NCBI GenBank assembly: GCA_036279355.1
Contig: DASUJH010000015.1
Span: forward strand, 1 to 35,754
DNA length: 35,754 nt
Source: Gemmatimonadales bacterium
Lineage (GTDB): Bacteria; Gemmatimonadota; Gemmatimonadetes; Gemmatimonadales; GWC2-71-9
Direction: 5' to 3'
Shown here piece by piece: positions 2,518-25,456 of the stretch. The translations under genes were made by a program, and so were the position numbers. The notes under the pieces are model-generated. The model was not told the DNA's origin. It saw only the letters and a list, made by a program, of their open reading frames with translations, and made no database searches. Positions within the stretch are counted from its first letter, which is position 1. The number at the start of each line of letters is the position of its first letter.

Positions 2518-3501
2518 CTACTCCGGCGGCTTTGCCGTGGCGACGAATATGTCATCCACGTAGAGGTGGCGGGTGACGGGCTCGGGCGGCGCGCCGACGC
2601 CGGTGAGCGAGCCGTCGATCATGATGGAATTGAGTCGCAGGTCGGTCGTCTTGCGGAAGGCGATTCCCGACCACTCTCCGCGAAGCACGCCGTCGAGCCA
2701 GAATCGCTGCGCGCCGTCCGATGCATCCGGCGCGTTCAGCTTCACCCAGTACTCCAGTTTGTGCCACGTTCCGCGCGAGGCCGTGAGCGGCGGGTAATAG
2801 GTGGCCTCCCCGGTGCCGAAGCGCCCCCAACAGGTCTTCCCGTCATCCTCGCGCGCCATCGCGGGGTAGTAGCTGTAGAGCTGCAGCGGGCCCGGATCGC
2901 CCTTGGCGGGCCACGCGATGACGCCGGTCGAAAACCACTGGTACCCATCGGGGCAGAGACCCGCAGTGCCAAAGGCCGACCAGCGGTCGTCAATCCGTGA
3001 GCCGCGCACCCTGAGCAGCTTGGTGCCGCCGGTCCAGTTGGACTCGAAGCGCACGTAATAACGAACATAGAGCGAATCGTAGCCTGGCATGAACCAGCGG
3101 GTGAGCCAGCCGCCGGTTTCGCCGGCGGGATACGTCATCCGCAACACGTGGCTGCCGCCATGCGCGAGCGCCGCATCAGCGAGCACCTCATGCAGCGGCG
3201 AGTCCTTGCCGTCGTCCCAGGAGGCGAGCGTGTTGGACTCGAAGTCGTCACGGAAAATCGTGTCGATGCGTGCGGTGGAAGGCGCGGGCGGCGGCGTGGG
3301 CGATCCCGGCACGCCGCTGCCGGGCGACTCGGCGCCGGGCGGATCGGCGACGGCCGTGGGGCCGCCGGGCTCGCCCGCGCAGGCGAGCAGGGCGGCGGTG
3401 CCGGCGAGGGTGGCGGCGCTGGTGACGGCTATGAAGGCAACCCGGAAGCGTGCGCGGCGGCGCGCGCGGGGCGCGTCGGGCGCGAGCGGCGCGGCGGGCA
3501 T
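2518..3501 (-). CDS. Lipoprotein with polysaccharide-lyase-like jelly-roll domain
   Basis: The protein has 327 residues. An Arg-rich N-terminus is followed by a hydrophobic segment (about 20-40) and a lipobox LLAC with Cys41, so it should be a lipoprotein. A Pro/Gly/Ser/Thr linker (about 45-78) precedes a single domain starting RDDFESNTLASWDDG. That opening, the many aromatic residues (YVRYYVRF, LEYWVKLN), FWLDGVLRGEW and the closing HLYVDDIFVA are typical of concanavalin-type lyases and carbohydrate-binding jelly rolls such as the heparin-lyase-I-like families. A catalytic residue cannot be assigned by eye, so it may bind rather than cleave sugar polymers. The ATG start is supported by AAGGAG at 3507-3512, five bases upstream. 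It is monocistronic and convergent with the TonB-like gene. The 198 bases upstream, up to the kinase stop at 3700, hold no gene. Confidence 0.7.
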   Translation of the reverse strand: MPAAPLAPDAPRARRRARFRVAFIAVTSAATLAGTAALLACAGEPGGPTAVADPPGAESPGSGVPGSPTPPPAPSTARIDTIFRDDFESNTLASWDDGKDSPLHEVLADAALAHGGSHVLRMTYPAGETGGWLTRWFMPGYDSLYVRYYVRFESNWTGGTKLLRVRGSRIDDRWSAFGTAGLCPDGYQWFSTGVIAWPAKGDPGPLQLYSYYPAMAREDDGKTCWGRFGTGEATYYPPLTASRGTWHKLEYWVKLNAPDASDGAQRFWLDGVLRGEWSGIAFRKTTDLRLNSIMIDGSLTGVGAPPEPVTRHLYVDDIFVATAKPPE

Positions 3502-3699: not shown

Positions 3700-5907
3700 T
3701 CAGGCCGTAGCCGGCCGCGATGCGTCCACCGCGCCGCGCGCGGCCGCGAGCAGCTCGTCCGGCGTGAACGGCTTTGCCAGGCAGAGAGCATCCTTCTCGA
3801 GCGCTCCCCGCCCGCTCACGGCGTCGGCCGCGTAGCCGGAGATGAGGAGCACCGGCACGCTCGGGCGCCGCGTCCGGAGCGCCTGCACCAGCTCGGGACC
3901 CGACGCCACCGGCATCGTGACGTCGGTGATCAACAGGTCGATCTCGGCAGCATGCTCGGCCGCGAGCACGCGCGCGGCGCCACCGTCGTCCGCTTCCAGC
4001 ACGTGATAGCCGGCCTCGCGGAGCGTCCGCGCCGCGAGCGCACGCACGGCGGCGTCATCCTCCGCCAGGAGCACCGTCCCGCGACCCTGCATCGAGCCGC
4101 CGCCGGCCTCGGGCCTGGCGGGCTCGGTCTCTTCGGTTGCGACCGGCAGCAGCACGCGGAATGTGGCGCCGTGTCCCAACTCGCTCTCCACCAGGATCTC
4201 TCCCTCTGCCTGCTTCACGATGCCGTAACACATCGCGAGCCCGAGGCCGGTGCCCTGGCCCACCGGCTTGGTGGTGAAGAAGGGCTCGAAGATCCGATTC
4301 ATGATGTCGGGGGCGATGCCGGTGCCGGTATCGGCGACCGCCAGCTCGACATACGCGCCCGGCACGAGCTCACGCCGTGCCGCTTCCGCCGGAGCCAACT
4401 CGATCTCGCGGGTGGTGATCTCGAGCCGGCCGCCGACCGGCATGGCGTCTCGCGCGTTCACCGCGAGGTTCACCAGCACCTGCTCGAGCTGGCCGGGGTC
4501 CACGCGGGTGGGCGGGAGCGAGGGCGCGAGCCGCACCTCGATCGTCATGTCCTCGCCCAGGATGCGCCGGAGCAGCGGCTCGAGCGCGCGCACCGCCTCG
4601 TTCAGATTCACCAGCGTCGGCAGCACCATCTGGCGCCGGGCGTACGAGAGGAGCTGCGAGGTGAGCGAGGCCGCGCGCCGGGCGGCGCGCTCCACCTGGT
4701 CCAGGTCGCTCCGCACCTGCGTGCCCTCGGGAAGTCGCCGCTGCGCGAATCTCACATAGCCGAGCATGCCGGTGAGCAGGTTATTGAAGTCGTGGGCGAT
4801 GCCGCCGGCGAGGTTGCCGATCGCCTCCATCTTCTGCGCCTGCATGAGCTGGCGCTCGAGTTTGCGCCGATCGGTGACGTCCTGCAATACCCCGATGAGC
4901 TGGCCCGGCGTACCAGGCGCGTCGAGATACGCGTGACCGCGGATCGCGATCTCGCGCTCCTCGCCGTCCGGCCCCGTCCGCCGGAATTCCGTCTCCACCG
5001 AGCCGCGGTCGCTGATGGCCTGCGCGATTGCTTGCCGCACCCTGGCTGCGTCGTCCGGATTCGCGCCCTCGAGAAGGGTCCCGAGCGCCGCCTCATCGAT
5101 CGTGGGGCCCAGCGGGAGCACCCAGGTGCGCATGCTCGCGGCGCCGAGCGCGAGCCGGAGGCGGGCCTCGCTCTCGCGCAGGGCGGCCGCCCGTTCCTGC
5201 ACCGCCGCATCCCGTTCCTGCAGCGTGTCGAGCATGCGGTTGAACCCATCCGTCAGCGCCCCGATCTCGTCGTCCGCGTGCGCCGGCACGCGGAGCGTGA
5301 GATCGCGGGTCGCGGTGAGGCGGCGGACGGTGTCGGCGAGGCCCAGGAGCGGTGTCGCGACCGAGCGGCCCAGCGCCGCGAGGAGCAGGATCGCCGTCGC
5401 GCCGACCGCGATGAGCACCACGACGACGACGATGGCGTACGGCGGAAGCCGCTGCCAGAAGGTCGGCAGCCGGTACTGCAGCCGGAGCCAGCCGAGCGGC
5501 TGGTCGTCGGACGCCACCGGCAGCGTCAGCACCAACTCGTCGCCTTGAACGACCAGACCGGAGTCCGCGGGCGGCGGTGCCAGGAGCGGCGGCGCGCCCG
5601 CGCGCCGGTAGGACGCGAACAGCGATCCGTCGGGGCGGTACACGGCGGCAGCGCCAATCTCGGCGCGGCTGCGCAGCGTCGCGAGGTTCTCGCGAGCGGC
5701 GGCGGAGTCGTCGAAGAGCAAGGCGGGGACGGTGTTGGTGCGGACGATGGCGCCGAGCGTGGTCACGTCGCTCACCGCGCGGGGCCGGAAGGTCGTGAGA
5801 TCGTAGATCGTGACCGCCGCGGCCGCGAGCGCCACGCCGCCCATGGAGGCGAGCGCGATCAGGATGCCCACCTTCTGGCGGATCGGACGGTCACGGAAGG
5901 CTCGCAC
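3700..5907 (-). CDS. Hybrid histidine kinase with CHASE8-like sensor and C-terminal receiver
   Basis: From the GTG at 5907 the protein has 735 residues. In order: membrane segment (about 12-36); a periplasmic region (about 40-155) beginning SDVTTLGAIVRTNTVPALLFDD and reading AAVYRPDGSLFASY, which looks like CHASE8; a second membrane segment (about 156-180); HAMP (about 180-235); a short coiled coil; a weak PAS-like region (about 250-345); HisKA with His372 in GGIAHDFNNLL; HATPase with N484, DTGTG and GQGTGLGL; and a receiver with Asp662 and Lys712. It should autophosphorylate on His372 and pass phosphate to its own receiver. The open frame runs further upstream to 6120, but that part overlaps the YfiR gene and is a shadow. 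The GTG overlaps the operon in typical fashion: it starts three bases past the YfiR stop, with GGGGGAG just upstream. It is the last gene of a four-gene operon. Confidence 0.85.
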   Translation of the reverse strand: MRAFRDRPIRQKVGILIALASMGGVALAAAAVTIYDLTTFRPRAVSDVTTLGAIVRTNTVPALLFDDSAAARENLATLRSRAEIGAAAVYRPDGSLFASYRRAGAPPLLAPPPADSGLVVQGDELVLTLPVASDDQPLGWLRLQYRLPTFWQRLPPYAIVVVVVLIAVGATAILLLAALGRSVATPLLGLADTVRRLTATRDLTLRVPAHADDEIGALTDGFNRMLDTLQERDAAVQERAAALRESEARLRLALGAASMRTWVLPLGPTIDEAALGTLLEGANPDDAARVRQAIAQAISDRGSVETEFRRTGPDGEEREIAIRGHAYLDAPGTPGQLIGVLQDVTDRRKLERQLMQAQKMEAIGNLAGGIAHDFNNLLTGMLGYVRFAQRRLPEGTQVRSDLDQVERAARRAASLTSQLLSYARRQMVLPTLVNLNEAVRALEPLLRRILGEDMTIEVRLAPSLPPTRVDPGQLEQVLVNLAVNARDAMPVGGRLEITTREIELAPAEAARRELVPGAYVELAVADTGTGIAPDIMNRIFEPFFTTKPVGQGTGLGLAMCYGIVKQAEGEILVESELGHGATFRVLLPVATEETEPARPEAGGGSMQGRGTVLLAEDDAAVRALAARTLREAGYHVLEADDGGAARVLAAEHAAEIDLLITDVTMPVASGPELVQALRTRRPSVPVLLISGYAADAVSGRGALEKDALCLAKPFTPDELLAAARGAVDASRPATA

Positions 5908-5909
5908 GC

Positions 5910-6518
5910 TCAGCGCTCCCCCGGCTCGTCCTGCACCCGGGTCGCCAGGCTCAGCACCCGCGAGCTGATCCGCAGGCCGGCCGCTCTGGCCGCGGTCAGA
6001 TTGATCCCGAAGCGTACCGTCTCGTTCACGATCACAAATCCGATCATGCCGTCCCGATCGACGAACTGCGCGCCCTCGCCGACGCTCAGGACGGGCCGGC
6101 CGCGAATCGCCTTCAGCCACTCGGCTTCATCGGGTGTATCCGGCGGAAGATAGAGCAGGTTGCAACGATCCGCCGCCGACGGGGAATCGACGCTCCGGGT
6201 CTGCAGCACGCGCCCGCGCTGCCGCCGCTCCGCCAGCACGCGATCGAGGATGCCGCGGAACGTCCCCAGCCCGGCCACGCAGAGCATGAGCGGCGCCTCG
6301 GAATCGGGCACCACCGAGCTGGGCCATTCGACGTAACGGGTGAAGTTGACGAGGTAGGCGGCCTTCACTCCGGCCTCGAGCTCCGAGGCGGGCACCTGGG
6401 CGCCGGCGGTGCCGATGCCGAACCCGAGCAGCAGGAACAGCGCCGCGGGCGGGCCAACGATGCCGCAGCGCGGGCCCCGCCGGCGGGCGCGCGACAGTCC
6501 AGCCGCTAGAAGCGCCAC
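5910..6518 (-). CDS. YfiR-family (DUF4154) periplasmic protein
   Basis: The 202-residue protein has a signal peptide (hydrophobic core about 22-40, ending AGA-Q). The mature part carries the family hallmarks: VKAAYLVNFTRYVEWP (51-66), LMLCVAGLG (Cys80), DRCNLLYLP (Cys119), and the ending FVIVNETVRFGINLTAARAAGLRISSRVLSLA. YfiR of Pseudomonas is a periplasmic repressor that binds the CHASE8 domain of the cyclase YfiN and is redox-controlled through disulfides. Cys80 and Cys119 could form the equivalent of its conserved disulfide. Translation starts at a GTG (6518) overlapping the receptor stop by 13 bases, and the kinase start follows its stop by two bases, so translation is coupled. The neighbouring CHASE8-like kinase is the obvious partner. 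The family call is strong; the partner is inferred from context. Confidence 0.87.
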   Translation of the reverse strand: MALLAAGLSRARRRGPRCGIVGPPAALFLLLGFGIGTAGAQVPASELEAGVKAAYLVNFTRYVEWPSSVVPDSEAPLMLCVAGLGTFRGILDRVLAERRQRGRVLQTRSVDSPSAADRCNLLYLPPDTPDEAEWLKAIRGRPVLSVGEGAQFVDRDGMIGFVIVNETVRFGINLTAARAAGLRISSRVLSLATRVQDEPGER

Positions 6519-8506
6519 TCGAGGTCGAGGCGAACCCGGCGTTCGATCGCGCGCCGCTCGGCTTCGAAGGGGCCCGGGCGGAACTCCGCGTGGCGCGGCG
6601 CGAGCAGGTCCTGCCCCACCAGCGCCACCCTGAGACCGGGGCGGACCGACCAGGCGACGCGCGCGTCGCCCTGGAGATAATCCGGAATCGCGGGAATGGC
6701 GGGCGGGTGCAGCGCAGAGACGTAGCGCAGTGCAAGATCGAGATCCACGGCGGCCGGCAGCGAAAAGGAGGAGCGAAGAGCAGCCTCGTGGCGCGGATTC
6801 AATTGAGCGACGAAATCGGGGAGCGCATTCGGGGTGCTCTCGTCAGGCTCGATGGTGCTGTGCAGGTAGGTATAGCTCGCGCGGAGCCGCATCCGCCGCG
6901 TGGTCTGCCACGTGGCGGCGAGCGTACCGCCGTAGCTCGCCGCGGTGGCGTCGTTGACAATCGCGAACGGAAGCACCAGCCGCCCGTCCACCCTGCCGAC
7001 CGAGCTCGGAAGCAAGGCACGGATGCGGCTGTAGTCGTTGTAGAAGAGGTCGGCATCCAGCGCGAGGCCCCTCACCGGGTGGCCCCGGTAGCCCAGCTCG
7101 TACGCGATGAGCCGCTCGGCCGCGAAATCGTCGTTGCCCTCGACCACGGCTGTCACCGGCGGCGGGCCCGGAGCGGTGACCGCGTTCTCGAAGATGTCGG
7201 TGTCCACCCGCGACGGGATGCGCACCGCCCGCGATACGGCCGACCAGAGGGTGTGCCGCGGAGTAAGCTGCCAGAGCAGCCGGACGTTCGGCTGTACCTC
7301 GAGCCCGCTGAAGCTGTTGTGCTCCAGCTTGGTGCCGAGGGTGAGATGCCAGCCATTCGCGCCAAGCGCGATGTCGTCCTGCAGGAATCCGGTGACGAGG
7401 TGCGTGGTGCGGCTCGAGGGCTCGAACGAGACGGGGTACGCGCCCGAGATGTCGTCCGCGTTGAGCCGAGCGCCGAGACCCCACACGATGTCGTGGCGGC
7501 CGCCGAGGATGAAGCGGTGCTGCACTTCGACGTCGGCGGTCGTGAGCGCGGCGCGCCCGAAGTAGGGCGCCTGGTCACGCACGTTCCGGTCGACGTAGGC
7601 CCGCGCGGAGAGCTCGCTCGCGCCGGAGAGCCGCCGGCTCCAATGCCCGAGCAGATTGCCGCCGTGCGTACGCACGTCGTAGGCGGTGAGCGCGGTGAAC
7701 GGCGGGTCCGGGGTGGGGAGCTGCTGGCGCTCGCCGCCCCGGGCGACATAGACATCGCCCTGGAGGGTGACATTGTCCCGCGGCGACAGGCGCGCGTCGA
7801 GGCGGAACCCACCCTGTCCCATGCGCCAGTCGTCGGGGGCCGGGTCGCCGGTAGTGAGATCCGCCGGGTCCTGGTAGAGATACCGCGCGTAGGCGCGCGC
7901 GTCGACGGCTCGCCCGAGCGCGCCGCCGTACTGCACGGTGCCGCCGACCCGGTCTTCGGTGCCGACATGCGCCAGCGCAAGACCGCCCGTGGTCTCCGCC
8001 GCCGGACGGGTGATGATGTTGATGACGCCGTTGACCGCGTTCGATCCCCACAGGGTGGCGCCGGGCCCGAGGATCACCTCGATGCGGTCGATGTCCTGCA
8101 GGACGACATCCTGCACGTCCCAGAAGACGCCCGCGAAGAGGGGCGAGTAGACGGCGCGGCCGTCGATCAGCACGAGCAGCTTGTTCGAAGTCACTTCGTT
8201 GAACCCGCGCGCGCTGATCGCCCATTCGCGCGCGCCGGCACGCGCCACCTCGAGCCCCGGCGCGAGCCGGAGCGCCTCGGGGAGCGAGGCCGCGCCGCTG
8301 CGCTCGATGTCCTCGCGGGTGATCACGAAGACCGCGGCGGCGGCCTCGGAAATCGGCTCGGGGCGCCGGCTCACGGAGGTCACCCGGATCCGCGCCAACT
8401 GCGTGATGTCGAGGTCGCCCAGGCTCTGGTCCGGCGCCGGTTGCTGGCCGGCCAGCGCCACCGGCAGGAGGATCGCGGCGGTGGCGAGAAGGGTGGCGCG
8501 GCGCAC
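6506..8506 (-). CDS. TonB-dependent outer-membrane receptor
   Basis: The 666-residue protein starts with a signal peptide (about 1-20, ending LAG-QQ). A plug domain (about 33-165) follows, with ITREDIERSGAASLPEALRLAPGLEV, SARGFNEVTSNKLLVLIDGR and the closing IEVILGPGATLWGSNAVNGVINIIT. The rest (about 170-666) is a beta-barrel with alternating aromatic strands and ends LDLEWRF, with the terminal Phe usual for outer-membrane barrels. VTSVSRR at about 43-49 could be the TonB box. The plug resembles vitamin B12/catecholate receptors in general; the ligand cannot be read from the sequence. Translation starts at GTG (8506), four bases after the receiver gene's stop. Its place in front of yfiR-like and kinase genes suggests a sensing role as well as, or instead of, bulk uptake. 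Confidence 0.9.
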   Translation of the reverse strand: MRRATLLATAAILLPVALAGQQPAPDQSLGDLDITQLARIRVTSVSRRPEPISEAAAAVFVITREDIERSGAASLPEALRLAPGLEVARAGAREWAISARGFNEVTSNKLLVLIDGRAVYSPLFAGVFWDVQDVVLQDIDRIEVILGPGATLWGSNAVNGVINIITRPAAETTGGLALAHVGTEDRVGGTVQYGGALGRAVDARAYARYLYQDPADLTTGDPAPDDWRMGQGGFRLDARLSPRDNVTLQGDVYVARGGERQQLPTPDPPFTALTAYDVRTHGGNLLGHWSRRLSGASELSARAYVDRNVRDQAPYFGRAALTTADVEVQHRFILGGRHDIVWGLGARLNADDISGAYPVSFEPSSRTTHLVTGFLQDDIALGANGWHLTLGTKLEHNSFSGLEVQPNVRLLWQLTPRHTLWSAVSRAVRIPSRVDTDIFENAVTAPGPPPVTAVVEGNDDFAAERLIAYELGYRGHPVRGLALDADLFYNDYSRIRALLPSSVGRVDGRLVLPFAIVNDATAASYGGTLAATWQTTRRMRLRASYTYLHSTIEPDESTPNALPDFVAQLNPRHEAALRSSFSLPAAVDLDLALRYVSALHPPAIPAIPDYLQGDARVAWSVRPGLRVALVGQDLLAPRHAEFRPGPFEAERRAIERRVRLDLEWRF

Positions 8507-8510
8507 CGGG

Positions 8511-8972
8511 TCAGTCCGGGCGCAGCAGGCGGGTCACTCTGCGGAGCAGCTCCTCGGGGTCAAATGGCTTGCGGAGGAACGTGGCTGCGACGGAGGCCGG
8601 CGGCTCGATGTCGAATCCAGAGATGTAGAGCACGGGAATCGGCGCGCGGCGCTCGGCGAGGCGGCGTCCGAGCTGCCAGCCATCCATGTGGGGCATGCGC
8701 ACGTCGGTGATGATGAGATCGAAGCCGTCGGAATCGGTCTCGATCAGGCGCCAGGCCCGCGCGCCGTCGGGGGCCACCGCCACGCCGTAGCCGCTTTCCT
8801 GCAGCAGGCGGGCGACGTAGGACCGGACGATCTCCTCGTCATCCACCACGAGGACGCGGCCGAGATGCGGCGCGGTCGCGCCGCCCGGGTCATCATCGGG
8901 GGCGGGGCGCCAGCCGGCGTAGCCGTCGCGGGCATCGGCGTCGAGGAGCAGAAGGGTGGGGCCGCAGGGCAT
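8511..8972 (-). CDS. Stand-alone response-regulator receiver protein
   Basis: The 153-residue protein has one receiver domain (about 38-150) with Asp44/Asp45, phosphoacceptor Asp90 in LIITDVRMP, Ser118 in place of the usual Thr/Ser switch, and Lys135 in RKPF. No output domain follows, so it can only act through protein contacts or as a phosphate relay or sink. It has a 37-residue N-terminal extension that is not part of the domain; its start, TLLLLDADARD, looks a little like a second receiver beta-strand. The ATG at 8972 has CGGAG about ten bases upstream. It is the first gene of the operon with the receptor, the YfiR-like protein and the hybrid kinase, and is a likely partner for that kinase. 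Confidence 0.85.
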   Translation of the reverse strand: MPCGPTLLLLDADARDGYAGWRPAPDDDPGGATAPHLGRVLVVDDEEIVRSYVARLLQESGYGVAVAPDGARAWRLIETDSDGFDLIITDVRMPHMDGWQLGRRLAERRAPIPVLYISGFDIEPPASVAATFLRKPFDPEELLRRVTRLLRPD

Positions 8973-9146: not shown

Positions 9147-9217
<71 letters not shown>

Positions 9218-9388
9218 TGCAGCAGACGCAATTGCGCCGAGCCGCACCGGTGAGCCTGAGGGTGCCGGCTGATTCGAGCCCCACCGCGCCGTCGTACACA
9301 CCACAGCCAACCGCTCCGCGATGTTCGCCGCGACCATTTCGCGGCGCCGGCAAGGTCCCGTGCCTCCGAACTCGCGCGCCGCGCGCTC

Positions 9389-9416
9389 TTGCGCCTTTCG
9401 CGCCCGCCTCTATTAT
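9389..9416 (+). promoter_or_regulatory. Probable promoter of the tetR-RND operon, with small inverted repeat downstream
   Basis: TTGCGC (9389-9394) and TATTAT (9411-9416) are 16 bases apart, 44 bases before the GTG start. Just after them CAATTATTG (9426-9434) has symmetrical CAAT/ATTG arms, around the expected transcript start, and could be part of a TetR operator. These are the only A/T-rich bases in a GC-rich 242-base gap after the tRNA, which otherwise shows nothing. Confidence 0.4.
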
Positions 9417-9459
9417 TTGCACGCTCAATTATTGGCATCCCTCGCCAAAGGCGGCCACC

Positions 9460-10224
9460 GTGCTCCGACAACCCCGCGCCACACCCGCCGCCGACGTGGA
9501 GCTTTGTCCCCGCTCGCCCCGCTGGCAGCGCCGCCCCGCCGAGCGGCGGCGCGAGATCATCGATGCCGCCGTCTCGACCTTCGGCCGCTGCGGCTTCGAG
9601 CGCGCCACCCTGGCCGACGTGGCCGAGCGCGCCGGCGTCTGCCCCGGCACCGTCTCCCACTACTTCGGCTCCAAGGGTGGGCTCTTCCAGGCCGTGATCG
9701 CCGAGCGGTTCGTCGGCTTCATCGCCCAGGAAGAAGCGCTCCTCGCGGACGAGGACGCGCCCACCTCCGCAACCGTGCGGCTCGACCAGATGCTCCGCCG
9801 ACTCTGGGAGCACACCTGGTCGCCCGGCACGCTCGAACTGATCCAGGTGACCCAGGTCGACTCGGCCGACTTTCCGGAATCCGGCCGGCTGCTCTGCCGA
9901 GAATTGAGCGGCCGCTGGCGGCGGCTCATGGGCGCCACCCTCGAGACCGGCATCCGCTCGGGAGAGTTCCGCCGGGTCGATTCCGACGTCACCGCGCGGA
10001 TCATCGGGTACACGGTGCTCGGCGTCGCGCAGAAGGTTTCAGCGTTCGCGCCCTATGATGCCGACATGCCGAGCCGGGAGGCGACGTGGAAGGTGGTGCG
10101 CGAGCTGGTGCATCGATACGTGAAGGCGGACGGCACGCTAGCGCACCGCAAGACTGCGAACCGCGCTAGCGCGCGAACACCCCGCAAGGGCGCCGCAGCC
10201 CGCACGCGGGCGGAGGATGCATGA
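9460..10224 (+). CDS. TetR-family transcriptional regulator of the RND pump operon
   Basis: From GTG 9460 the protein has 254 residues. The N-terminal DNA-binding domain spans about 28-75: RREIIDAAVSTFGRCGFERATLADVAERAGVCPGTVSHYFGSKGGLF, a very typical TetR helix-turn-helix. The remaining helical part (about 80-230) is the ligand-binding and dimerisation domain, ending in a basic Ala/Arg/Lys-rich tail of about 30 residues that is unusual. The open frame extends back into the tRNA at 9217, which excludes that start. AAAGG at 9447-9451 is eight bases before the GTG and decides it. The stop overlaps the adaptor start in ATGA (10221-10224), so the regulator is translated with the pump. AcrR-like repressors of RND pumps are usually divergent; here it is the first gene of the pump operon. 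Negative autoregulation is likely but inferred. Confidence 0.88.
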   Translation: MLRQPRATPAADVELCPRSPRWQRRPAERRREIIDAAVSTFGRCGFERATLADVAERAGVCPGTVSHYFGSKGGLFQAVIAERFVGFIAQEEALLADEDAPTSATVRLDQMLRRLWEHTWSPGTLELIQVTQVDSADFPESGRLLCRELSGRWRRLMGATLETGIRSGEFRRVDSDVTARIIGYTVLGVAQKVSAFAPYDADMPSREATWKVVRELVHRYVKADGTLAHRKTANRASARTPRKGAAARTRAEDA

Positions 10225-11363
10225 AATCGTCTCGATCCATTGCCGGCCTGCTGGCGCTCCTCGTCGCTTCGAGCTGCAAGCATGCCGCGCCGCCCCAGGC
10301 GCCGCCGCCCCCCGAGGTCGCCGTCGTAACGCTGGCACCGCGGCCCGTGCCGGAATCCTACGAGTTCACCGGCGAGGTGCAGCCGTACCGCCGTGTGGAA
10401 GTGCGCGCGCGGATCGACGGCGTGATCGAGGCGCGCCCCTTCACCGAAGGCGCCTTCGTCAAGCCCGGCCAGGTGCTCTACCGGCTCGACCGCGTCCGCC
10501 CCGAGGCCGCCTACCAGAACGCGCTTGCCCGCGCGCAGAACGCCCGCCGCACGCTCGCGCGGCTGGAGCCGCTGCTGGCGCAGAACGCGGTGGCGCAGCA
10601 GGACGTCGACAATGCGCGCACCGAGGTGCAATCGGCCGAGGCGGCGCTCGCGGAAGCGAAAAAGAATCTGGACGACACGGTGGTGCGCGCCGAGATCGCG
10701 GGCCGGGTGGGCCGCACCATGCTCGACGTGGGCGCCCGCGTCCGAGGGTCCGACGACATCCTCACCACGATCGACGTGCTCGATCCGATCTACGTGAGCT
10801 TCCGTCCCTCGGCCCAGCAACTGCTCGACTGGAAGGAGCACCCCGAGAGCCGCGCACTCGTCCAGCCGGGGAGCCAGCTCGCCGTGCACGTGACGCTGCC
10901 CAATGGATCGCCGCTGCCGCGCACCGGTCACCTCGACTTCGTGGCGCCGTCGCTCGATGCCACGACCGGCACGCAGGAGTTCCGCGCCCGGTTCGACAAC
11001 GACGACCACCTGCTCGTACCCGGCCAGTTCGTGCGGGTGCGGCTCACCGGCTTCGTGCGCGACAGCGCGCTCGCCGTGCCGCAACGCGCCGTCCAGCAGG
11101 CGCTCGGCCGCCAGTTCGTGTACGTGGTGGGCAAGGGCGACACCGTGGCCACCCGTGACATCGAGCCCGGCCCCTGGAGCGGCGGGCTCTGGATCGTCGA
11201 CCGCGGCCTCGCCGCGGGTGAGCGGGTGATCGTGGACGGCGTGCAGAAGGTCGCGGCGGGCCAGCCGGTGCATCCGGTGCCGGCCGCCGACACGACCGGT
11301 GCCGCCGGCGCCGACAGCGCGGCGCTCGACACCGAAACCTCGCAGCTCGGGGCCACGCGGTGA
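10221..11363 (+). CDS. RND efflux periplasmic adaptor (membrane fusion lipoprotein)
   Basis: The 380-residue protein of the AcrA/MexA family starts with a short signal peptide and a probable lipid-modified Cys19 (VASSC, a slightly unusual lipobox). The first lipoyl half-motif is FTGEVQPYRRVEVRARIDGVIE (about 49-70); ITEG-type text follows as FTEGAFVKPGQVLYRLD. A helical hairpin (about 92-150) carries YQNALARAQNA and NLDDTVVRAEIAGRVG. Then come the second lipoyl half, the beta-barrel domain (PIYVSFRPS, LVPGQFVRVRL) and the membrane-proximal region to about 355, followed by an Ala/Thr/Asp-rich tail. It should bridge the inner-membrane pump and the outer-membrane channel encoded next. Its stop overlaps the pump's GTG. 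Confidence 0.92.
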   Translation: MKSSRSIAGLLALLVASSCKHAAPPQAPPPPEVAVVTLAPRPVPESYEFTGEVQPYRRVEVRARIDGVIEARPFTEGAFVKPGQVLYRLDRVRPEAAYQNALARAQNARRTLARLEPLLAQNAVAQQDVDNARTEVQSAEAALAEAKKNLDDTVVRAEIAGRVGRTMLDVGARVRGSDDILTTIDVLDPIYVSFRPSAQQLLDWKEHPESRALVQPGSQLAVHVTLPNGSPLPRTGHLDFVAPSLDATTGTQEFRARFDNDDHLLVPGQFVRVRLTGFVRDSALAVPQRAVQQALGRQFVYVVGKGDTVATRDIEPGPWSGGLWIVDRGLAAGERVIVDGVQKVAAGQPVHPVPAADTTGAAGADSAALDTETSQLGATR

Positions 11364-14300
11364 ACGACATGCCCCGAAAGCCCGGCGCGGCCAACGCGGA
11401 CGCCGAGATCAGGTACTTCTTCATCCGGCGGCCGGTGCTCTCGGTCGTCATCAGCCTGGTCATCACGCTGCTCGGCATCTTCGCCATCCGGCTGCTGCCG
11501 ATCTCGCGCTATCCGCAGATCACGCCGCCCGCCGTGACGGTGCAGGCGACGTACCCCGGCGCCACCGCCGAGGACGTGGCCGAAGCCGTGGCGGCGCCGA
11601 TCGAGCAGCAGCTCTCGGGGTTGCAGGGACTGCTCTACTACTCGTCGGCCAACGCGAGCGACGGGACGATGAGCCTGAACGTGTACTTCGACGTCACGCG
11701 CGACCAGGACCTGGCGGCGGTCGACGTGCAGAACGCCGTGCAGCTCGCCGAACCGCAGCTTCCCGATGCCGTGCGGCAGAACGGTGTCACCATCCTCAAG
11801 GCCAACACCGACATTCTCGGCGTCGTGGCGCTCACCTCGGACGATCCGCGGTACGACGCCGCGTACCTCACCAACTACCTCCGCCTCTACATCGAGGACG
11901 AGATCAAGCGGGTGCCAGGCATCGGCAACGCCAACACGTTCGGCGGTCTCGAGTTCTCGATGCTGATCCAGCTCGACCCCGACCGGATGGCGCAGCTCGG
12001 CGTCACCACGGGCGATGTGGCGGCCGCGGTGCGGGAGCAGAACGCCACCAACCCGGCGGGCCGAGTGGGGCGCGAGCCGGCGCCGCCCGGCACCGAGCTC
12101 ACGCTGCCGGTGACGGCGCTCGGCCGGCTCAAGACCCCCGAGCAGTTTGCCGACATCGTGGTGCGCGCCAAGCCCGACGGCGCGCTCATCCGGATCCGCG
12201 ACGTGGGCCGCGTGGTGCTCGGCTCGCGCAACTATGACCTCGTGGGCCGGCTCAACGGCAAGCCGTTCGCGGCGCTGCTCATCTATCTCCGGCCCGGCGC
12301 CAATGCGCTCGCGGTGAAGGACGCGACGGTGAAGCGCATGGCGGAGCTCGCGCGCAACCTGCCGGCCGGCGTGCACTGGGCGATCCCGTTCGACACGACG
12401 CCATTCGTCACCGCATCGATCAAGGAGGTGGTCACCACCCTGGTCGAGGCGATGCTGCTGGTGACGCTCGTGGTGTTCGTCTTCCTCCAGAGCTGGCGGG
12501 CGACGCTCATCCCGATGCTGGCGGTGCCGGTGAGCGTCATCGGCACGTTCCTCGGCCTCCTCATGCTCGGCTTCACCATCAACGTGCTGACGCTCTTCGC
12601 GCTGGTGCTCGCGATCGGCATTGTGGTGGACGACGCGATCGTGGTGATCGAAAACACGGAGCGCATCATGGCGAGCGAAGGCCTCGCCGCGCGCCCCGCC
12701 GCCGACCGCGCCATCCGCCAGGTGGCGCCGGCGCTCGTCGCCATCGTGCTCTCGCTCTGCGCCGTGTTCGTGCCGGTCGCGTTCCTCGGCGGGGTGACGG
12801 GCGAGATGTTCAAGCAGTTCGCGGTGACGCTGGTGATCTCCGTCGTGCTCTCGGGTCTCGTGGCGCTCACCCTGACTCCGGCGCTCTGCGCCATGTTGCT
12901 CAAGGAGTCGAACGAGGCGCACCAGGGCGGCATCTTCGGTGCGTTCAACCGCGGTTTTGCGCGGGTGACGCGGGGCTACACCGGCGGCGTGGGCCGCATG
13001 CTCGGCCGGCCGCGGCTCTGGCTCGCAGTATTCGCCGTCCTGGTGGCGCTCGCCGTGGTGCTCTGGCGGACGATTCCGAGCGCGTTCATTCCGACGGAGG
13101 ACAAGGGCTACTTCGCGATCGCGCTGCAGCTCCCCGATGCCGCGTCGCTGCAGCGCACCGAGCAGGTGATGCAGCGGGTGGAGGGCTTCCTCAAGGCGGA
13201 GCCGTCGGTGCAGAACATCGTGGCCCTGGGCGGACTCGACATCCTCACGCGGACCAACCAGACCAACAGCGCCACGATCTTCATCAACCTGGTGCCGTGG
13301 GAGAAACGGGGCGCCGGCCAGTCCATCGACGACATCACCGGGCGGGTGAACGCCAAGCTGTTCGGGATGAAGGACGCGATCGGCTTCGCGTTCAACCTGC
13401 CGGAGATACCCGGCCTGGGTGCCACGTCGGGCGTCGAGGCCAACCTGCAGAACCGAAGCGGGCAGAGCGTGGCCGAGTTCGCCACGAAGGTGCAGGAGTT
13501 CGTGGCGGCGGCCAACCAGCTCCCGGCGGTACAGGGGGTCAACACCAACTTCCGCGCCAACGTACCGCAGGTGTACGTCGACGTGGACCGCGCCGCGGCC
13601 AAGTCGCGTGGCGTGAGCCTCACCGACCTCTTCAGCACGCTGCAGACGTTTCTCTCGACGCTCTATATCAACGACTTCAATCTCTACGGCCGCACCTACC
13701 GGGTGCAGGCGGAAGCGCAGCCGCAGTTCAGGAGAACGCCTGAGGACATCGGCCGGCTCTACGTGCGGGGGCGCAACGACGAAATGATTCCGGTGTCGGC
13801 GCTCACCCGGACGGAGTTCCGCAGCGGGCCCACGCAGCTCCTCCGCTTCAACGGCTTCGGCTCGGCGCTGATCACGGGAAATCCCAAGGCCGGGCGCAGC
13901 TCGGGCGAGGTGCTGGATCAGCTCGACCAGCTCGTCGCCGCGAAGTTCGCGTCGCAGGGGGTGGGCATCGCCTACTCCGGCCAGTCATTCCAGGAGCGGG
14001 CCGGCAGCGGGCAGGCCGGGCTCGTCTTCGCGCTCGGGCTCGTGATGGTGTTTCTCGTGCTCGCCGCGCAGTACGAGAGCTGGTCGATTCCGTTCGCCGT
14101 GCTGCTTGGCGTGCCGTTCGGGGCGCTCGGTGCGCTGCTCGGCATCTGGCTCCGGGGCACGCCGAGCGACATCTACTTCCAGGTGGGGCTCATCACCGTG
14201 GTGGGGCTCGCGGCCAAGAACGCGATCCTCATCGTCGAGTTCGCCAACGACATGCGGGTGCGGGGCACGCCGCTCCGCGAGGCGGCCGTCGAGGCGGCGC

Positions 14301-14569
14301 GCGAGCGGTTCCGGCCGATCCTCATGACGTCGTTCGCGTTCATCCTCGGCGTGTCGCCGCTCGTCATCGCGAGCGGTGCGGGCGCGGCGAGCCGGCACTC
14401 GCTCGGCACCGGCGTGTTCGCCGGTATGCTCTTCGCCACGACGATCGGGATCTTCTTCATCCCGCTCTTTTTCCGGGTGATCCGCGGGGCGGCGGAGCGG
14501 ACCGATGAGCGTCGCAAGCACAAGGACGTTCAACGCGAGGCGGCGCGACTGCCGGAAAGCGCGCGGTGA
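11360..14569 (+). CDS. RND multidrug efflux pump, HAE1 (AcrB/MexB) family permease
   Basis: At 1,069 residues this has the normal length of an HAE1 permease. The first membrane helix begins after FFIRRPVLSVV (20-30). Two large periplasmic loops follow helices 1 and 7, including YPGATAEDV (65-73) and the funnel motif near VPGIGNANTFGG. Helix 4 carries the paired proton-relay residues Asp424 and Asp425 in AIGIVVDDAIVVIEN. Helix 10 carries GLAAKNAILIVEF, with the family's lysine. It exchanges protons for hydrophobic drugs, bile salts or similar compounds; the substrate cannot be predicted. It starts at a GTG overlapping the adaptor stop (GTGA); an ATG three codons later is also possible. The stop overlaps the next gene's GTG by three bases. 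Confidence 0.95.
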   Translation: MNDMPRKPGAANADAEIRYFFIRRPVLSVVISLVITLLGIFAIRLLPISRYPQITPPAVTVQATYPGATAEDVAEAVAAPIEQQLSGLQGLLYYSSANASDGTMSLNVYFDVTRDQDLAAVDVQNAVQLAEPQLPDAVRQNGVTILKANTDILGVVALTSDDPRYDAAYLTNYLRLYIEDEIKRVPGIGNANTFGGLEFSMLIQLDPDRMAQLGVTTGDVAAAVREQNATNPAGRVGREPAPPGTELTLPVTALGRLKTPEQFADIVVRAKPDGALIRIRDVGRVVLGSRNYDLVGRLNGKPFAALLIYLRPGANALAVKDATVKRMAELARNLPAGVHWAIPFDTTPFVTASIKEVVTTLVEAMLLVTLVVFVFLQSWRATLIPMLAVPVSVIGTFLGLLMLGFTINVLTLFALVLAIGIVVDDAIVVIENTERIMASEGLAARPAADRAIRQVAPALVAIVLSLCAVFVPVAFLGGVTGEMFKQFAVTLVISVVLSGLVALTLTPALCAMLLKESNEAHQGGIFGAFNRGFARVTRGYTGGVGRMLGRPRLWLAVFAVLVALAVVLWRTIPSAFIPTEDKGYFAIALQLPDAASLQRTEQVMQRVEGFLKAEPSVQNIVALGGLDILTRTNQTNSATIFINLVPWEKRGAGQSIDDITGRVNAKLFGMKDAIGFAFNLPEIPGLGATSGVEANLQNRSGQSVAEFATKVQEFVAAANQLPAVQGVNTNFRANVPQVYVDVDRAAAKSRGVSLTDLFSTLQTFLSTLYINDFNLYGRTYRVQAEAQPQFRRTPEDIGRLYVRGRNDEMIPVSALTRTEFRSGPTQLLRFNGFGSALITGNPKAGRSSGEVLDQLDQLVAAKFASQGVGIAYSGQSFQERAGSGQAGLVFALGLVMVFLVLAAQYESWSIPFAVLLGVPFGALGALLGIWLRGTPSDIYFQVGLITVVGLAAKNAILIVEFANDMRVRGTPLREAAVEAARERFRPILMTSFAFILGVSPLVIASGAGAASRHSLGTGVFAGMLFATTIGIFFIPLFFRVIRGAAERTDERRKHKDVQREAARLPESAR

Positions 14570-16119
14570 GCGCCCCCGCACGCGGGGTGCGCACGCCGGG
14601 CGCGCGCACGACAGCCGCCCGCGCCGTCGGCGCGCTCGTGCTCGGCGCCGCGGCGCTCGTGCTCGGCTGCGCCGTGGGCCCGAGCTACCACCCAGTGGGA
14701 GTCGTCCCACCGGACACGCACTTCGGCTCCGGCGCCGACACCGGTGCGACGCGCGCCTACTTCGACTCGCTCGCCGCCGCACGCACCGCCGACACCGTTC
14801 CGCTCGGCCCCACGCCCGAGCCCGCGGTGGCGCCGCCGGGCGTGGCGCCGCCGCTCACGCGCGCCGCCGACTCGCTCGCCGGTGCCGCATGGCTCGATAT
14901 CCTCCGTGACACGACGCTCGTGCGGCTGGTCGAGACGGCCGTGCGGCAGAACCGCGACGTGCAGACGGCGGTGCAGCGGATCCGCGAGTTCCGCGCGGAG
15001 CTGGGCGTCGCCCGCTCGCCGCTGTTTCCCGAGGTCTCCGTCAACGCGAGCGCCAGCACCAACCAGGTGGCGGTGGGCGCATTCCCGCCCACGTCGTTCA
15101 ACGCCCTGCGGGTGACGGGCGATCTCGCATGGGAGCTGGATCTCTGGGGCCGGATCCGGCGGGGCGTCGAGGCGGCGCGCGCCGATCTGGGCGTCGAGGA
15201 GGCGGCGCACCGCGCGGTGCTGCTGACGCTGGTGAGCGACGTCGCCTCCAGCTATCTCCAACTCCTCGAGCTCGATCAGGAGCGCACGATCGCCGAGCGG
15301 ACGCTCGCCTCGCGGCGGGAGACGCTGCGCCTCGCGCGGAGCCGGTTCCAACAGGGCGTGATTTCCGAGCTCGACGTGCGGCAGTTCGAGGCGGAAGCGG
15401 CGGTCCCGGCGACGACGCTGGCCACGCTCGAGCGGTTGCGCGCCCAGCAGGCGCACCAGTTGAGCGTGCTGCTCGGCGAGGCACCGGCGCCGATTCCGCG
15501 CGGCGGCGCGCTCAACGACGCGGTGGCCGCGCTCGTGGTGCCCGATTCGCTGCCGGCGAGCCTGCTTGCGCGGCGGCCCGACATCGCGGAGGCGGAGCGT
15601 GCGTACGCCGCCGCGACGGCGCGGATCGGCGTGGCCCAGGCGGAACGGCTGCCGACGGTGTCGATCACGAGCTCGTACGGCTCGCAGTCGCCCAACACGA
15701 GCAACCTGTTCACCGGACAGACCGAGGTGTACCAGGTGCTGGGCGGCGTGTCGCTCCCGCTCTTCACCGGCGGCCGGATTTCCAACCAGATCGAGGCGGC
15801 GCGCGCGCGGGCGGAGCAGGCGCGGGCGCAGTACGAGCAGTCGGTGCTCGTGGGCTTGCGCGAAGCGGGCGACGCGCTCGCCGCGATCGGAAGCGCGCGG
15901 GACCAGGCCGCGGCGCAGGCCACGCAGGTGGAAGCACTCCGCCGCGCGCTCGCCCTCGCCGCCGTGCGCTATCGGAGCGGGGTGGCCAGCTACCTCGAAG
16001 TGCTCGACGCCCAGCGCAGCCTCTTCTCCGCGGAGCTCGGGCTGAGCCAGGCGCAACTCCTGCAACTCACGTCCGCCGTGCAGCTTTACCGCGCCATCGG
16101 AGGCGCCTGGAACCCGTAA
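14566..16119 (+). CDS. Outer-membrane efflux lipoprotein, NodT/OprM family
   Basis: The 517-residue protein starts with a basic region, a hydrophobic segment and lipobox LVLGC (Cys35), followed by AVGPSYHPVG, the usual 'CxVGPxYxxP' start of mature NodT-type outer-membrane factors. An unusual linker of about 60 residues (about 47-105, rich in Asp, Thr, Ala and Pro) separates this from the first helix at AAWLDILRDTTLVRLVETAVRQNRDVQ. Two repeated halves follow, the second with ARRPDIAEAERAYAAATARIGVAQAERLPTVS and LEVLDAQRSLFSAELGLSQAQLLQ. The protein should form the trimeric channel of the pump. It is the last gene of the tetR-adaptor-pump-channel operon and starts at a GTG inside the pump's stop region. 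No other channel gene is nearby. Confidence 0.93.
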   Translation: MSAPARGVRTPGARTTAARAVGALVLGAAALVLGCAVGPSYHPVGVVPPDTHFGSGADTGATRAYFDSLAAARTADTVPLGPTPEPAVAPPGVAPPLTRAADSLAGAAWLDILRDTTLVRLVETAVRQNRDVQTAVQRIREFRAELGVARSPLFPEVSVNASASTNQVAVGAFPPTSFNALRVTGDLAWELDLWGRIRRGVEAARADLGVEEAAHRAVLLTLVSDVASSYLQLLELDQERTIAERTLASRRETLRLARSRFQQGVISELDVRQFEAEAAVPATTLATLERLRAQQAHQLSVLLGEAPAPIPRGGALNDAVAALVVPDSLPASLLARRPDIAEAERAYAAATARIGVAQAERLPTVSITSSYGSQSPNTSNLFTGQTEVYQVLGGVSLPLFTGGRISNQIEAARARAEQARAQYEQSVLVGLREAGDALAAIGSARDQAAAQATQVEALRRALALAAVRYRSGVASYLEVLDAQRSLFSAELGLSQAQLLQLTSAVQLYRAIGGAWNP

Positions 16120-23023: not shown

Positions 23024-25456
23024 TCAGCCGAGCACGTCGCGGATGACCTGCTCCAGCTCGGCCAGCTCGAACGGCTTCTCGATCACCGGCCGATCGGTGC
23101 GGGCGAGGAGTGCGGCCGCTTCCGGCGACGCGACGTCGCCGCTCATGACGACGAGCCGGGTGAAGAGGTCGGGCCGCTCGGCCGACAAGCGGTCGTGGAA
23201 CTCGGTGCCCGAGATGCCGGGCATCCGGAGATCGGTGATGATCACGTCGTACGACTGGGCCGGCTTGCCGAGCAACCGGGCGAGGCCGGCCTCGCCGTCA
23301 TCGGCCTCATCCACGTGCCAGCCGCGCCGCTCGAAGTAACGCCGGAGCGCGAAGCGGATCGACGGCTCGTCTTCTACCAGCAGCACGGTGGCGTCGCGGG
23401 AGCCGTTGGAAGAGACGGTAGAGGCGGTAAGGGCGGGAAGGGCGGTAGCAGTGGGCGCGGCGTCGGCCGGGGTGGCTCGCGCCACTGTCCTGCGCTCGGC
23501 CGCCGGCGTCGTTTCGGCCGCGGCGGCGCGGAGCCAGAGCGTCGCGCGGGCGCCGCGCTCGGGCGCGGGGCGGTTTCTTACCTCGAGCTTGCCGTGGTAC
23601 TGCGTTGCAATGCCGAGCGACACCGAGAGGCCGAGGCCGGTGCCCTGGCCCGTGGCTTTGGTGGTGTAGAACGGCTCGAAGATGTGCGGCATCACGTCGG
23701 GTGCAATGCCGGGCCCGTCGTCCTCCACCACGACCGCGCAGCCGTTTCGTTCAGCGCGCGCGACGATCGACACCGCGCCGCCGCGGCCGGCCGCCTGCGC
23801 GCCGTTGGTGATGAGGTTGCCCAGGATCTGCTCGAAGCCGACCGGATCCACGTACACCCTGGGCAGATTCGGCCCGATGGTCACGGCGACGCGCACACCG
23901 GTGCGGTCCATCTCATGCCGGAGTCCGTCCACCGCACGCTCGAGCACCAGGGCCACGTCGGTGGGCGCGCCGCGGTCTTCGCGGCGGCGCACGAAGGCGA
24001 GCAGCTCGCGCACGATGCTCCGGGCGCGGCGCGCCTGCACCGACACCACCTCGAGTGCCTCGCGCTCTGCCGCCGGGCGGGTCTCGACCCCGAGCAGCTC
24101 GTCGGTAAGATTGAGGACCGCGGCGAGCGGATTGTTGAGCTCGTGCGCCACGCCTGAAATCACCCGTCCCGCGGCGGCGAGCTTCTCGGTCTGCACCAGC
24201 CGGTCCTGCGTGGCCGCGAGCTCGGAGTAGGCGCGGCGCAGGTCGCTCTCGTCGGCGCGGACCCGCCTCGCCATGGCGTCGAACGCGCGTGCGAGTGCCG
24301 CGACCTCGTCGCCGCCGGCCATCGCAAGCGCGCCCACCTCGAGCTCGCCGGCGGCCATCCGATCGGTGGCCGCGTGCAACTGGCGCAGCGGGTCCACGAT
24401 GCTGCGCGCGAGCATCGCGGAGAGTACGAGACCCACGATCAGCACGGCGCCGCCGAGCGCCGCGGCCGTGCCGGTGGAGCGGAGCGCGGCCTCGCGCCAG
24501 TCGCTCATGGGCGACACGGCGACGAAGATGGCATCATCGCCGTCCGGCAGCAGGCTTGGCACGTCGTTGAACGCGACCACCTTGTGCTCGCGGTCGCGGC
24601 CCGCGAAATGGCCCCGGCTCCGGGTCGCGACCGCGCCGAAATCGCTCTGCCCATCGCTCAGCAGAATCCGGCCGGCTCCGGTCCCGGCCACAATGAATCG
24701 GTTCGAGCGGCGTGCGACGAAGCCGTACACGTGGGGCCCGAACGGCGCCAGCGCCGCCTCGAGGCTACCGTATGATCGCGCCGGCGCGACCGCGTCCTCG
24801 AGCTGCATGCCCAGCGTCTCTTCGGCCATGAGCTGGCGCTGGCCCAGCCCGTAGAGCAGGATCGGCGCGGCGACCGCGAGCGTCAGCGCGACGGCGATCG
24901 AAAGCACCTTGCTGTACACCGATTGGAGCACACCGCCGGAGCGCGCGGGAAACGGCATCGCCGGCGTCTCGCGCATCAGCTCGGCCTTCCGTATGGCTCC
25001 CTCGGCCAGCAGGTAGGCGGCGGCCGCGAAGAGCGCACCGATCACGAAGCCCTGCACGACCATCTTTGCCGCCTCGAGCAGCGGCAACGCCGCCGCGCGG
25101 TGCACCACGAAGGCGCGGACACCCGCGCCCAGGATGCTGATGGCGAGCGCAAGCGAGGCGACCTGTCCGGGGTAGCGCGCGATGCGGCGCGCCGCGTCAG
25201 GCTCCGACGCGCGCCGCGCTACCCGGCGCCAGAGGAGCCACGGCAGGAGTACCGCACCCGGCCATCCCACGAGCGGCACCTGCCAGGCGTAGCAGACCAG
25301 AATCGCATGGGCCTGCTTCGGATTGACCAGCCACCAGAGCCGCGAGAACGGGATGCCCAGCGCCCACCAGCAGATGACCGACGCGAGCCAGAGCTTGGCC
25401 GCGAGCAAGCGCCCGGCCCGGGCAGCCGGGCCGGCGGGGCGTGCGGGCGTATTCAC
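23024..25456 (-). CDS. Membrane hybrid histidine kinase with N-terminal four-helix module
   Basis: The 810-residue protein has about four membrane segments in an N-terminal module (about 22-152), a fifth at 184-205, a periplasmic region (about 206-328), a sixth at 331-350, HAMP (350-400), HisKA with His438 in ISGVAHELNNPLAAV, HATPase with N551, EDDGPGIAP and GQGTGLGL, an Ala/Thr-rich linker (about 645-690) and a receiver with Asp742 and Lys794. The catalytic part belongs to the NtrB-like HisKA group. The N-terminal module (WWLVNPKQAHAILV and on) matches nothing I know. No DNA-binding partner is adjacent; phosphate may leave via an unlinked histidine phosphotransfer protein. The start MNTPARPAG (ATG, 25456) is followed by the first helix. 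It is convergent with the BNR gene, with 24 bases between the stops. Confidence 0.87.
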   Translation of the reverse strand: MNTPARPAGPAARAGRLLAAKLWLASVICWWALGIPFSRLWWLVNPKQAHAILVCYAWQVPLVGWPGAVLLPWLLWRRVARRASEPDAARRIARYPGQVASLALAISILGAGVRAFVVHRAAALPLLEAAKMVVQGFVIGALFAAAAYLLAEGAIRKAELMRETPAMPFPARSGGVLQSVYSKVLSIAVALTLAVAAPILLYGLGQRQLMAEETLGMQLEDAVAPARSYGSLEAALAPFGPHVYGFVARRSNRFIVAGTGAGRILLSDGQSDFGAVATRSRGHFAGRDREHKVVAFNDVPSLLPDGDDAIFVAVSPMSDWREAALRSTGTAAALGGAVLIVGLVLSAMLARSIVDPLRQLHAATDRMAAGELEVGALAMAGGDEVAALARAFDAMARRVRADESDLRRAYSELAATQDRLVQTEKLAAAGRVISGVAHELNNPLAAVLNLTDELLGVETRPAAEREALEVVSVQARRARSIVRELLAFVRRREDRGAPTDVALVLERAVDGLRHEMDRTGVRVAVTIGPNLPRVYVDPVGFEQILGNLITNGAQAAGRGGAVSIVARAERNGCAVVVEDDGPGIAPDVMPHIFEPFYTTKATGQGTGLGLSVSLGIATQYHGKLEVRNRPAPERGARATLWLRAAAAETTPAAERRTVARATPADAAPTATALPALTASTVSSNGSRDATVLLVEDEPSIRFALRRYFERRGWHVDEADDGEAGLARLLGKPAQSYDVIITDLRMPGISGTEFHDRLSAERPDLFTRLVVMSGDVASPEAAALLARTDRPVIEKPFELAELEQVIRDVLG

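Follow-up and report, generated by a model that had tools for sequence, protein, structure and literature searches.

YfiBNR and the STN-type receptors are among the described systems closest to the locus reported here. YfiBNR (TpbB in Pseudomonas aeruginosa; DgcN/YfiR/YfiB in Escherichia coli) combines the DUF4154 protein YfiR with a CHASE8-HAMP transmitter, the cyclase YfiN, and with the outer-membrane protein YfiB; in textbook signalling by TonB-dependent receptors (TBDRs), the STN domain of the receptor acts on an anti-sigma factor. We analysed a stretch of 35,754 nucleotides from a soil bacterium, a member of the Gemmatimonadales (contig DASUJH010000015.1 of assembly GCA_036279355.1, positions 1 to 35,754, forward strand; hereafter the window), in which four genes on the minus strand, 8972–3700, encode a stand-alone receiver, a TBDR, a YfiR-like protein and a hybrid histidine kinase with a CHASE8 sensor. 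The system is real and conserved, and we read it as a variant of YfiBNR-type sensing in which both the partner in the outer membrane and the output have changed. We propose, at a probability of roughly 0.64, that it forms an envelope-spanning signalling line leading from the receptor through YfiR to the CHASE8 kinase.

An earlier note on this DNA, made from the letters alone, had described four tightly packed genes, and their positions and spacings on the minus strand are confirmed, as are its readings of the kinase sensor as CHASE8 and of the YfiR protein as DUF4154, both now checked against Pfam profiles. The features are as follows.

8511..8972, minus strand: stand-alone receiver, 153 aa; Response_reg 81.2 bits (Pfam)
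6506..8506, minus strand: TBDR, 666 aa; plug 73.5 and barrel 104.7 bits (Pfam)
8363..8446, minus strand: periplasmic N-terminal tail of the receptor, residues 21-48, read from the sequence
8024..8353, minus strand: plug domain of the receptor, residues 52-161 (Pfam)
6506..6518, minus strand: 13-nt overlap of the receptor stop and the YfiR start
5910..6518, minus strand: YfiR-like periplasmic protein, 202 aa; DUF4154 133.5 bits, cut-off 24.9 (Pfam)
3700..5907, minus strand: hybrid histidine kinase, 735 aa, GTG start at 5907
5479..5778, minus strand: CHASE8 periplasmic sensor, kinase residues 44-143; 53.5 bits, cut-off 27 (Pfam)
5215..5373, minus strand: HAMP domain of the kinase (Pfam)
4138..4818, minus strand: HisKA and HATPase_c core of the kinase, CckA-like, HDFNN type (Pfam)
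3739..4074, minus strand: C-terminal receiver of the kinase (Pfam)

The receiver gene ends 4 nt before the TBDR gene, and 2 nt separate the YfiR and kinase genes; the longest open reading frame of the kinase extends back to 6120, and the start that fits is the GTG at 5907, two bases past the YfiR stop. Scans for promoters and terminators gave no signal above chance. The domain order of the kinase is CHASE8, HAMP, PAS, HisKA, HATPase and REC (Pfam), and by reading its H, N and G motifs and its receiver Asp are intact; the stand-alone receiver likewise carries the DD, phospho-acceptor Asp, Ser and Lys positions. A Pfam scan of the receptor found no STN domain, and residues 41-45 of its tail, RVTSV, read as TonB-box-like.

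To place these genes among their relatives, the GTDB genome collection was scanned with the YfiR alignment alone, which left the neighbouring genes unselected; of 328 relatives, 80 were kept, and six loci from a phylum search brought the survey to 86. As labelled in their records, the relatives belong to Gemmatimonadota, Bacteroidota, Verrucomicrobiota, Fibrobacterota, Acidobacteriota and Proteobacteria. Cultivated carriers of the cassette include Terrimonas pollutisoli and Chryseolinea serpens. In 79 of the 86 loci the gene immediately before YfiR, on the same strand, encodes a TBDR, and in 84 the gene immediately after it encodes a CHASE8 protein, the exceptions being L105 and L026, the latter at a contig edge. 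Beyond the second neighbour of YfiR, just 8 TBDRs and 2 such kinases occur in 512 genes. The recurrence of the receptor–YfiR–kinase order in other genomes, on which the earlier note had staked its reading, thus extends across phyla. In 52 of the 79 loci, from several phyla, an in-frame YfiR start is available that gives the same 13-nt overlap with the TBDR gene, and its retention points to translational coupling of receptor and YfiR. Closer to home, the YfiR family is found in 22 of 102 genomes of the window's taxonomic family, and five relatives from that family show the four-gene order: L025, L282 and L285 begin with the receiver and end with a hybrid kinase of CckA-like type, and in L281 and L284 the order holds as far as the contig reaches. 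The receivers upstream of the TBDR in these five are 48-61% identical to that of the window.

Some loci stand apart. L033 and L038 are titled Micromonosporaceae and Chloroflexi, and their YfiR proteins are 73% and 65% identical to Gemmatimonadota ones, so these are probably misbinned contigs. Three Bacteroidota loci (L170, L174, L175) carry adjacent duplicate YfiR-like genes, partly without a CHASE8 kinase, and in a gammaproteobacterial locus (L243, 3999-6594) a TBDR gene comes after that for YfiR and neither a kinase nor a cyclase gene adjoins them.

Structure models and couplings bear on the step from YfiR to CHASE8. An AlphaFold2 model of YfiR (mean predicted local distance difference test score, pLDDT, 86.6) has P. 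aeruginosa YfiR structures as its best Foldseek matches (E = 2.7e-9, TM-score 0.77 by target), and the model of the kinase N-terminus (pLDDT 91.6) shows two long helices flanking a PAS-like domain and comes closest to the WalK and CitA sensors. Mean-field direct coupling analysis (DCA) of 193 paired YfiR and CHASE8 sequences yielded nine inter-protein couplings above z = 4.5, against means of 0.2 after random pairing and 1.0 or 3.4 after shuffles within clusters. The top coupling, between YfiR R187 and kinase E73, is among the first 20 in all ten 70% subsamples, and 127 of the 193 pairs combine K or R with E or D at these positions (Fisher p = 2.7e-7, uncorrected for phylogeny). On the YfiR side, eight of the top ten couplings lie in the first helix, the final strand or the region of the C-terminal helix (residues 51, 57, 62, 167, 181, 187 and 188), and seven involve kinase residues 61–74. 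The matching face of P. aeruginosa YfiR is conserved, binds YfiB and has been proposed to bind YfiN (PMC4655355; PMC4887326). The couplings support an interface with CHASE8 on one face of YfiR, and the YfiR–CHASE8–kinase reading of the earlier note is, at the level of sequence, well supported.

Pairwise distances over 54 loci indicate how the parts have evolved together. The correlation is 0.62 for YfiR with CHASE8 and 0.56 for YfiR with the TBDR; it is 0.28 for YfiR with the kinase core, and 0.29 for CHASE8 with the core despite their lying on one polypeptide. The bootstrap interval for the YfiR–CHASE8 minus the YfiR–core correlation runs from 0.14 to 0.55, and that for YfiR–receptor minus YfiR–core from −0.01 to 0.52. 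On alignment, the kinase cores across loci are of different types, and the proteins adjacent to them include stand-alone receivers, LuxR-type regulators, REC-GGDEF and REC-GGDEF-EAL proteins. Three gammaproteobacterial loci (L234–L236) read TBDR–YfiR–CHASE8–GGDEF; in L234 the sensor, at 217.5 bits, passes the cut-off of the NCBIfam model HK_near_YfiR_like, receptor and YfiR pass those of their own models, and EAL-type models match. Judged by these comparisons, the TBDR, YfiR and CHASE8 vary together as an input cassette, and the output attached to it is swapped, being different kinases in some loci and GGDEF-EAL in others. The earlier note had held that the sensor pair drives a phosphorelay and not c-di-GMP synthesis; for the window this is favoured by the kinase and by the lack of a detected CHASE8 cyclase in the source genome, and in the gammaproteobacterial loci the cassette is joined to a GGDEF-EAL output.

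YfiR can also serve as the input domain of a kinase within one chain, as fusions make clear. A Bacteroidota search returned five single-chain proteins (L156–L160) in which a histidine kinase is joined to DUF4154 through a predicted coiled coil of some length and a transmembrane helix; they lack CHASE8, and all five have a receptor with plug and barrel directly upstream. The receptors of three of them, run against NCBIfam, are far from the TOL_0244 family to which the window receptor belongs. This suggests, on present gene neighbourhoods, that the link between receptor and YfiR was made more than once. An apparent TBDR–YfiR fusion in L048 (6114-8564) was rejected, its single reading frame being an artefact of runs of N.

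We therefore set out the proposed line as a series of steps. When the receptor binds its ligand, or carries out transport with TonB energy, the state of periplasmic YfiR would change, and YfiR would act on the CHASE8 domain through a face made up of its first and C-terminal helices; the activity of the kinase core would shift, and phosphate would pass by way of its own receiver, the stand-alone receiver or both to a protein encoded elsewhere. Free YfiR probably keeps the transmitter off and the receptor relieves it, a sign adopted by analogy with YfiBNR. That the receptor is the input, which way control runs and how phosphate travels are points that we infer; the suggestion of the earlier note that the receptor takes the place of YfiB as the outer-membrane input is plausible.

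Several observations weigh against this line. Some relatives have no TBDR beside YfiR, and about half of the loci with room for one lack a stand-alone receiver beside the kinase (present in 30 of 67). Three more YfiR–kinase fusions, from the Verrucomicrobiota and Gammaproteobacteria searches (L240 1-1773, L241 4020-6752 and L242 1909-4494), have no same-strand TBDR directly upstream, L242 having a convergent TBDR neighbour. The DCA control of YfiR against the kinase core was not clean, with 3 and 6 couplings above 4.5 where CHASE8 gave 10 at the same loci, so the YfiR/CHASE8 couplings count as supporting evidence and not as proof. In DCA of the TBDR with YfiR (90 and 120 pairs), the plug and tail segments were no stronger than the barrel overall.

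Two accounts compete for the step from receptor to YfiR. In a targeted block, a suggestive but weak coupling between YfiR I159 and receptor L32 exceeded all 65 shuffles, in a test for which the tail was chosen post hoc and which involves rare residues and slight variation; I159 is the equivalent of F151, at the base of the pocket for YfiB and YfiN, and L32 lies in the periplasmic tail. Contact through the receptor tail or plug is slightly preferred, at somewhat less than even odds, over the binding of an imported ligand by YfiR. In that second, rather doubtful account, the receptor does nothing but import, YfiR catches the compound without touching the receptor, and loaded YfiR changes its grip on the CHASE8 kinase. 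Such a hand-over would suit the fold of YfiR, whose next Foldseek matches are substrate-binding proteins (3lft with L-Trp and an R. marinus substrate-binding protein), and the finding that vitamin B6 or L-Trp can occupy, in P. aeruginosa YfiR, the very pocket that takes F57 of YfiB (PMC4887326); receptors of other families paired with YfiR–kinase fusions also favour it. Yet the affinities of P. aeruginosa YfiR for these ligands lie in the ten-millimolar range (PMC4887326), the pocket residues are well conserved in the family although the receptors vary, and the test of pocket against tail, for all its post hoc choice of tail, beat every shuffle. Carried further, the contact account would make YfiR/CHASE8 a general signalling route for TBDRs besides that through STN and anti-sigma factors, one in which the module reads the receptor with its tail in the YfiB pocket and feeds kinases, cyclase/phosphodiesterases and fused kinases in several phyla; we offer this extension tentatively, and on present evidence it is unlikely to hold as a whole.

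An improbable alternative reverses the direction of the receptor–YfiR–kinase line: YfiR would sense the state of the envelope or its redox balance, the kinase would set receptor expression, and the receptor would be the product of the pathway and not its input. Genes of two-component systems often adjoin the transporter that they control, and C80 and C119 of YfiR align with Cys71 and Cys110 of P. aeruginosa YfiR, a redox-responsive pair. However, just 47 of 196 family members carry the two cysteines together; C119 on its own is widespread (160 of 196), for the most part alongside Gly at position 80. The earlier note's conserved Cys pair accordingly survives as an alignment with the P. aeruginosa pair and is rejected as a family-wide trait. 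The window operon contains no DNA-binding regulator, and some relatives have a GGDEF-EAL output; receptor, YfiR and CHASE8 co-vary where the kinase core does not; and TBDRs adjoin even YfiR–kinase fusions.

The whole genome, which is 97.5% complete, provides further context. One DUF4154 and one CHASE8 were detected, both within the operon, which leaves YfiR without a visible partner cyclase of the YfiN type. That the operon is part of a standard YfiBNR system with its cyclase at another locus and the kinase an unrelated neighbour is very improbable, since although about ten GGDEF proteins are encoded in the genome, CHASE8 was detected in none of them, the single one being in this kinase, and the YfiR/CHASE8 adjacency is kept almost throughout the survey. 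Three ExbD genes indicate that TonB energy is available, and the single STN detected in the genome lies outside the receptor. A TonB-like protein (TonB_C, 39.6 bits) is encoded at 1775-2470 on the plus strand, about 1.2 kb beyond the kinase gene, and could energise the receptor.

Other genes surround the operon. A secreted polysaccharide-lyase-14-like protein (2518-3501, minus strand) is encoded 198 nt downstream of the kinase and is probably outside the system, because its gene is absent beside the operon in the relatives compared. Divergent from the operon, 9217-16119 on the plus strand holds a TetR-type regulator followed by RND-efflux-like genes, the adaptor and pump recognised by reading and the outer-membrane efflux protein by Pfam. 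At 23024-25456 on the minus strand lies another hybrid kinase of CckA-like type (HAMP, HisKA, HATPase, REC), which has no CHASE8.

If the proposed line is correct, it gives the six phyla of the survey a further portable means of carrying signals from the surface into the cytoplasm, and YfiR/CHASE8 becomes a general input module of which cyclase output is merely one use. The R187–E73 pair offers a concrete test at the level of residues. The gene set itself is already catalogued, by name only, in NCBIfam, where models exist for all three components, so its curators had seen the association of receptor, YfiR and kinase; literature searches that combined YfiR, DUF4154 or CHASE8 with either TonB or kinases turned up no description of the receptor–YfiR–kinase set. 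Receptor and YfiR are members of the TOL_0244 and TOL_0243 families, at 677.7 bits against NF053590 (TonB_dep_TOL0244, cut-off 645) and 130.6 bits against NF053591 (YfiR_like_TOL0243, cut-off 125). The kinase sensor scores 180.9 bits over the full length of NF053592 (HK_near_YfiR_like), just below its cut-off of 194, and its orthologue in L025 scores 176.1; the kinase core reaches 406.5 against the CckA equivalog model, below the cut-off of 1000. Compared with the NCBIfam set, the gene neighbours are alike, and the window operon differs in its CckA-like hybrid kinase core and its leading stand-alone receiver.

The receptor family takes its name from TOL_0244 of Thalassolituus oleivorans. According to PMC6304351, TOL_0244 is upregulated sevenfold on the n-C28 alkane and is 40.3% similar to OmpS of Alcanivorax dieselolei, a TBDR reported as essential to alkane detection and utilisation. 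Exposure to alkanes is thus a functional lead for the receptor family, by analogy through these two alkane receptors.

With YfiBNR the operon shares the DUF4154 fold of YfiR and the CHASE8-HAMP transmitter, and the couplings fall on the same face of YfiR. It differs in that the transmitter is CHASE8-HAMP-PAS-HisKA-HATPase-REC instead of the CHASE8-HAMP-GGDEF of YfiN, in that its outer-membrane neighbour, within the operon as the part of the genome searched for YfiB, is a TBDR instead of that OmpA-like lipoprotein, and in that its YfiR lacks the structural Cys145-Cys152 disulfide, the aligned residues being V153 and G160. With FecA/FecR/FecI and other STN-type TBDR transducers it would have in common a signal that passes from the outer membrane to the cytoplasm by way of a TBDR; the receptor here has no STN match and adjoins no sigma/anti-sigma pair, and its periplasmic partner would instead be YfiR.

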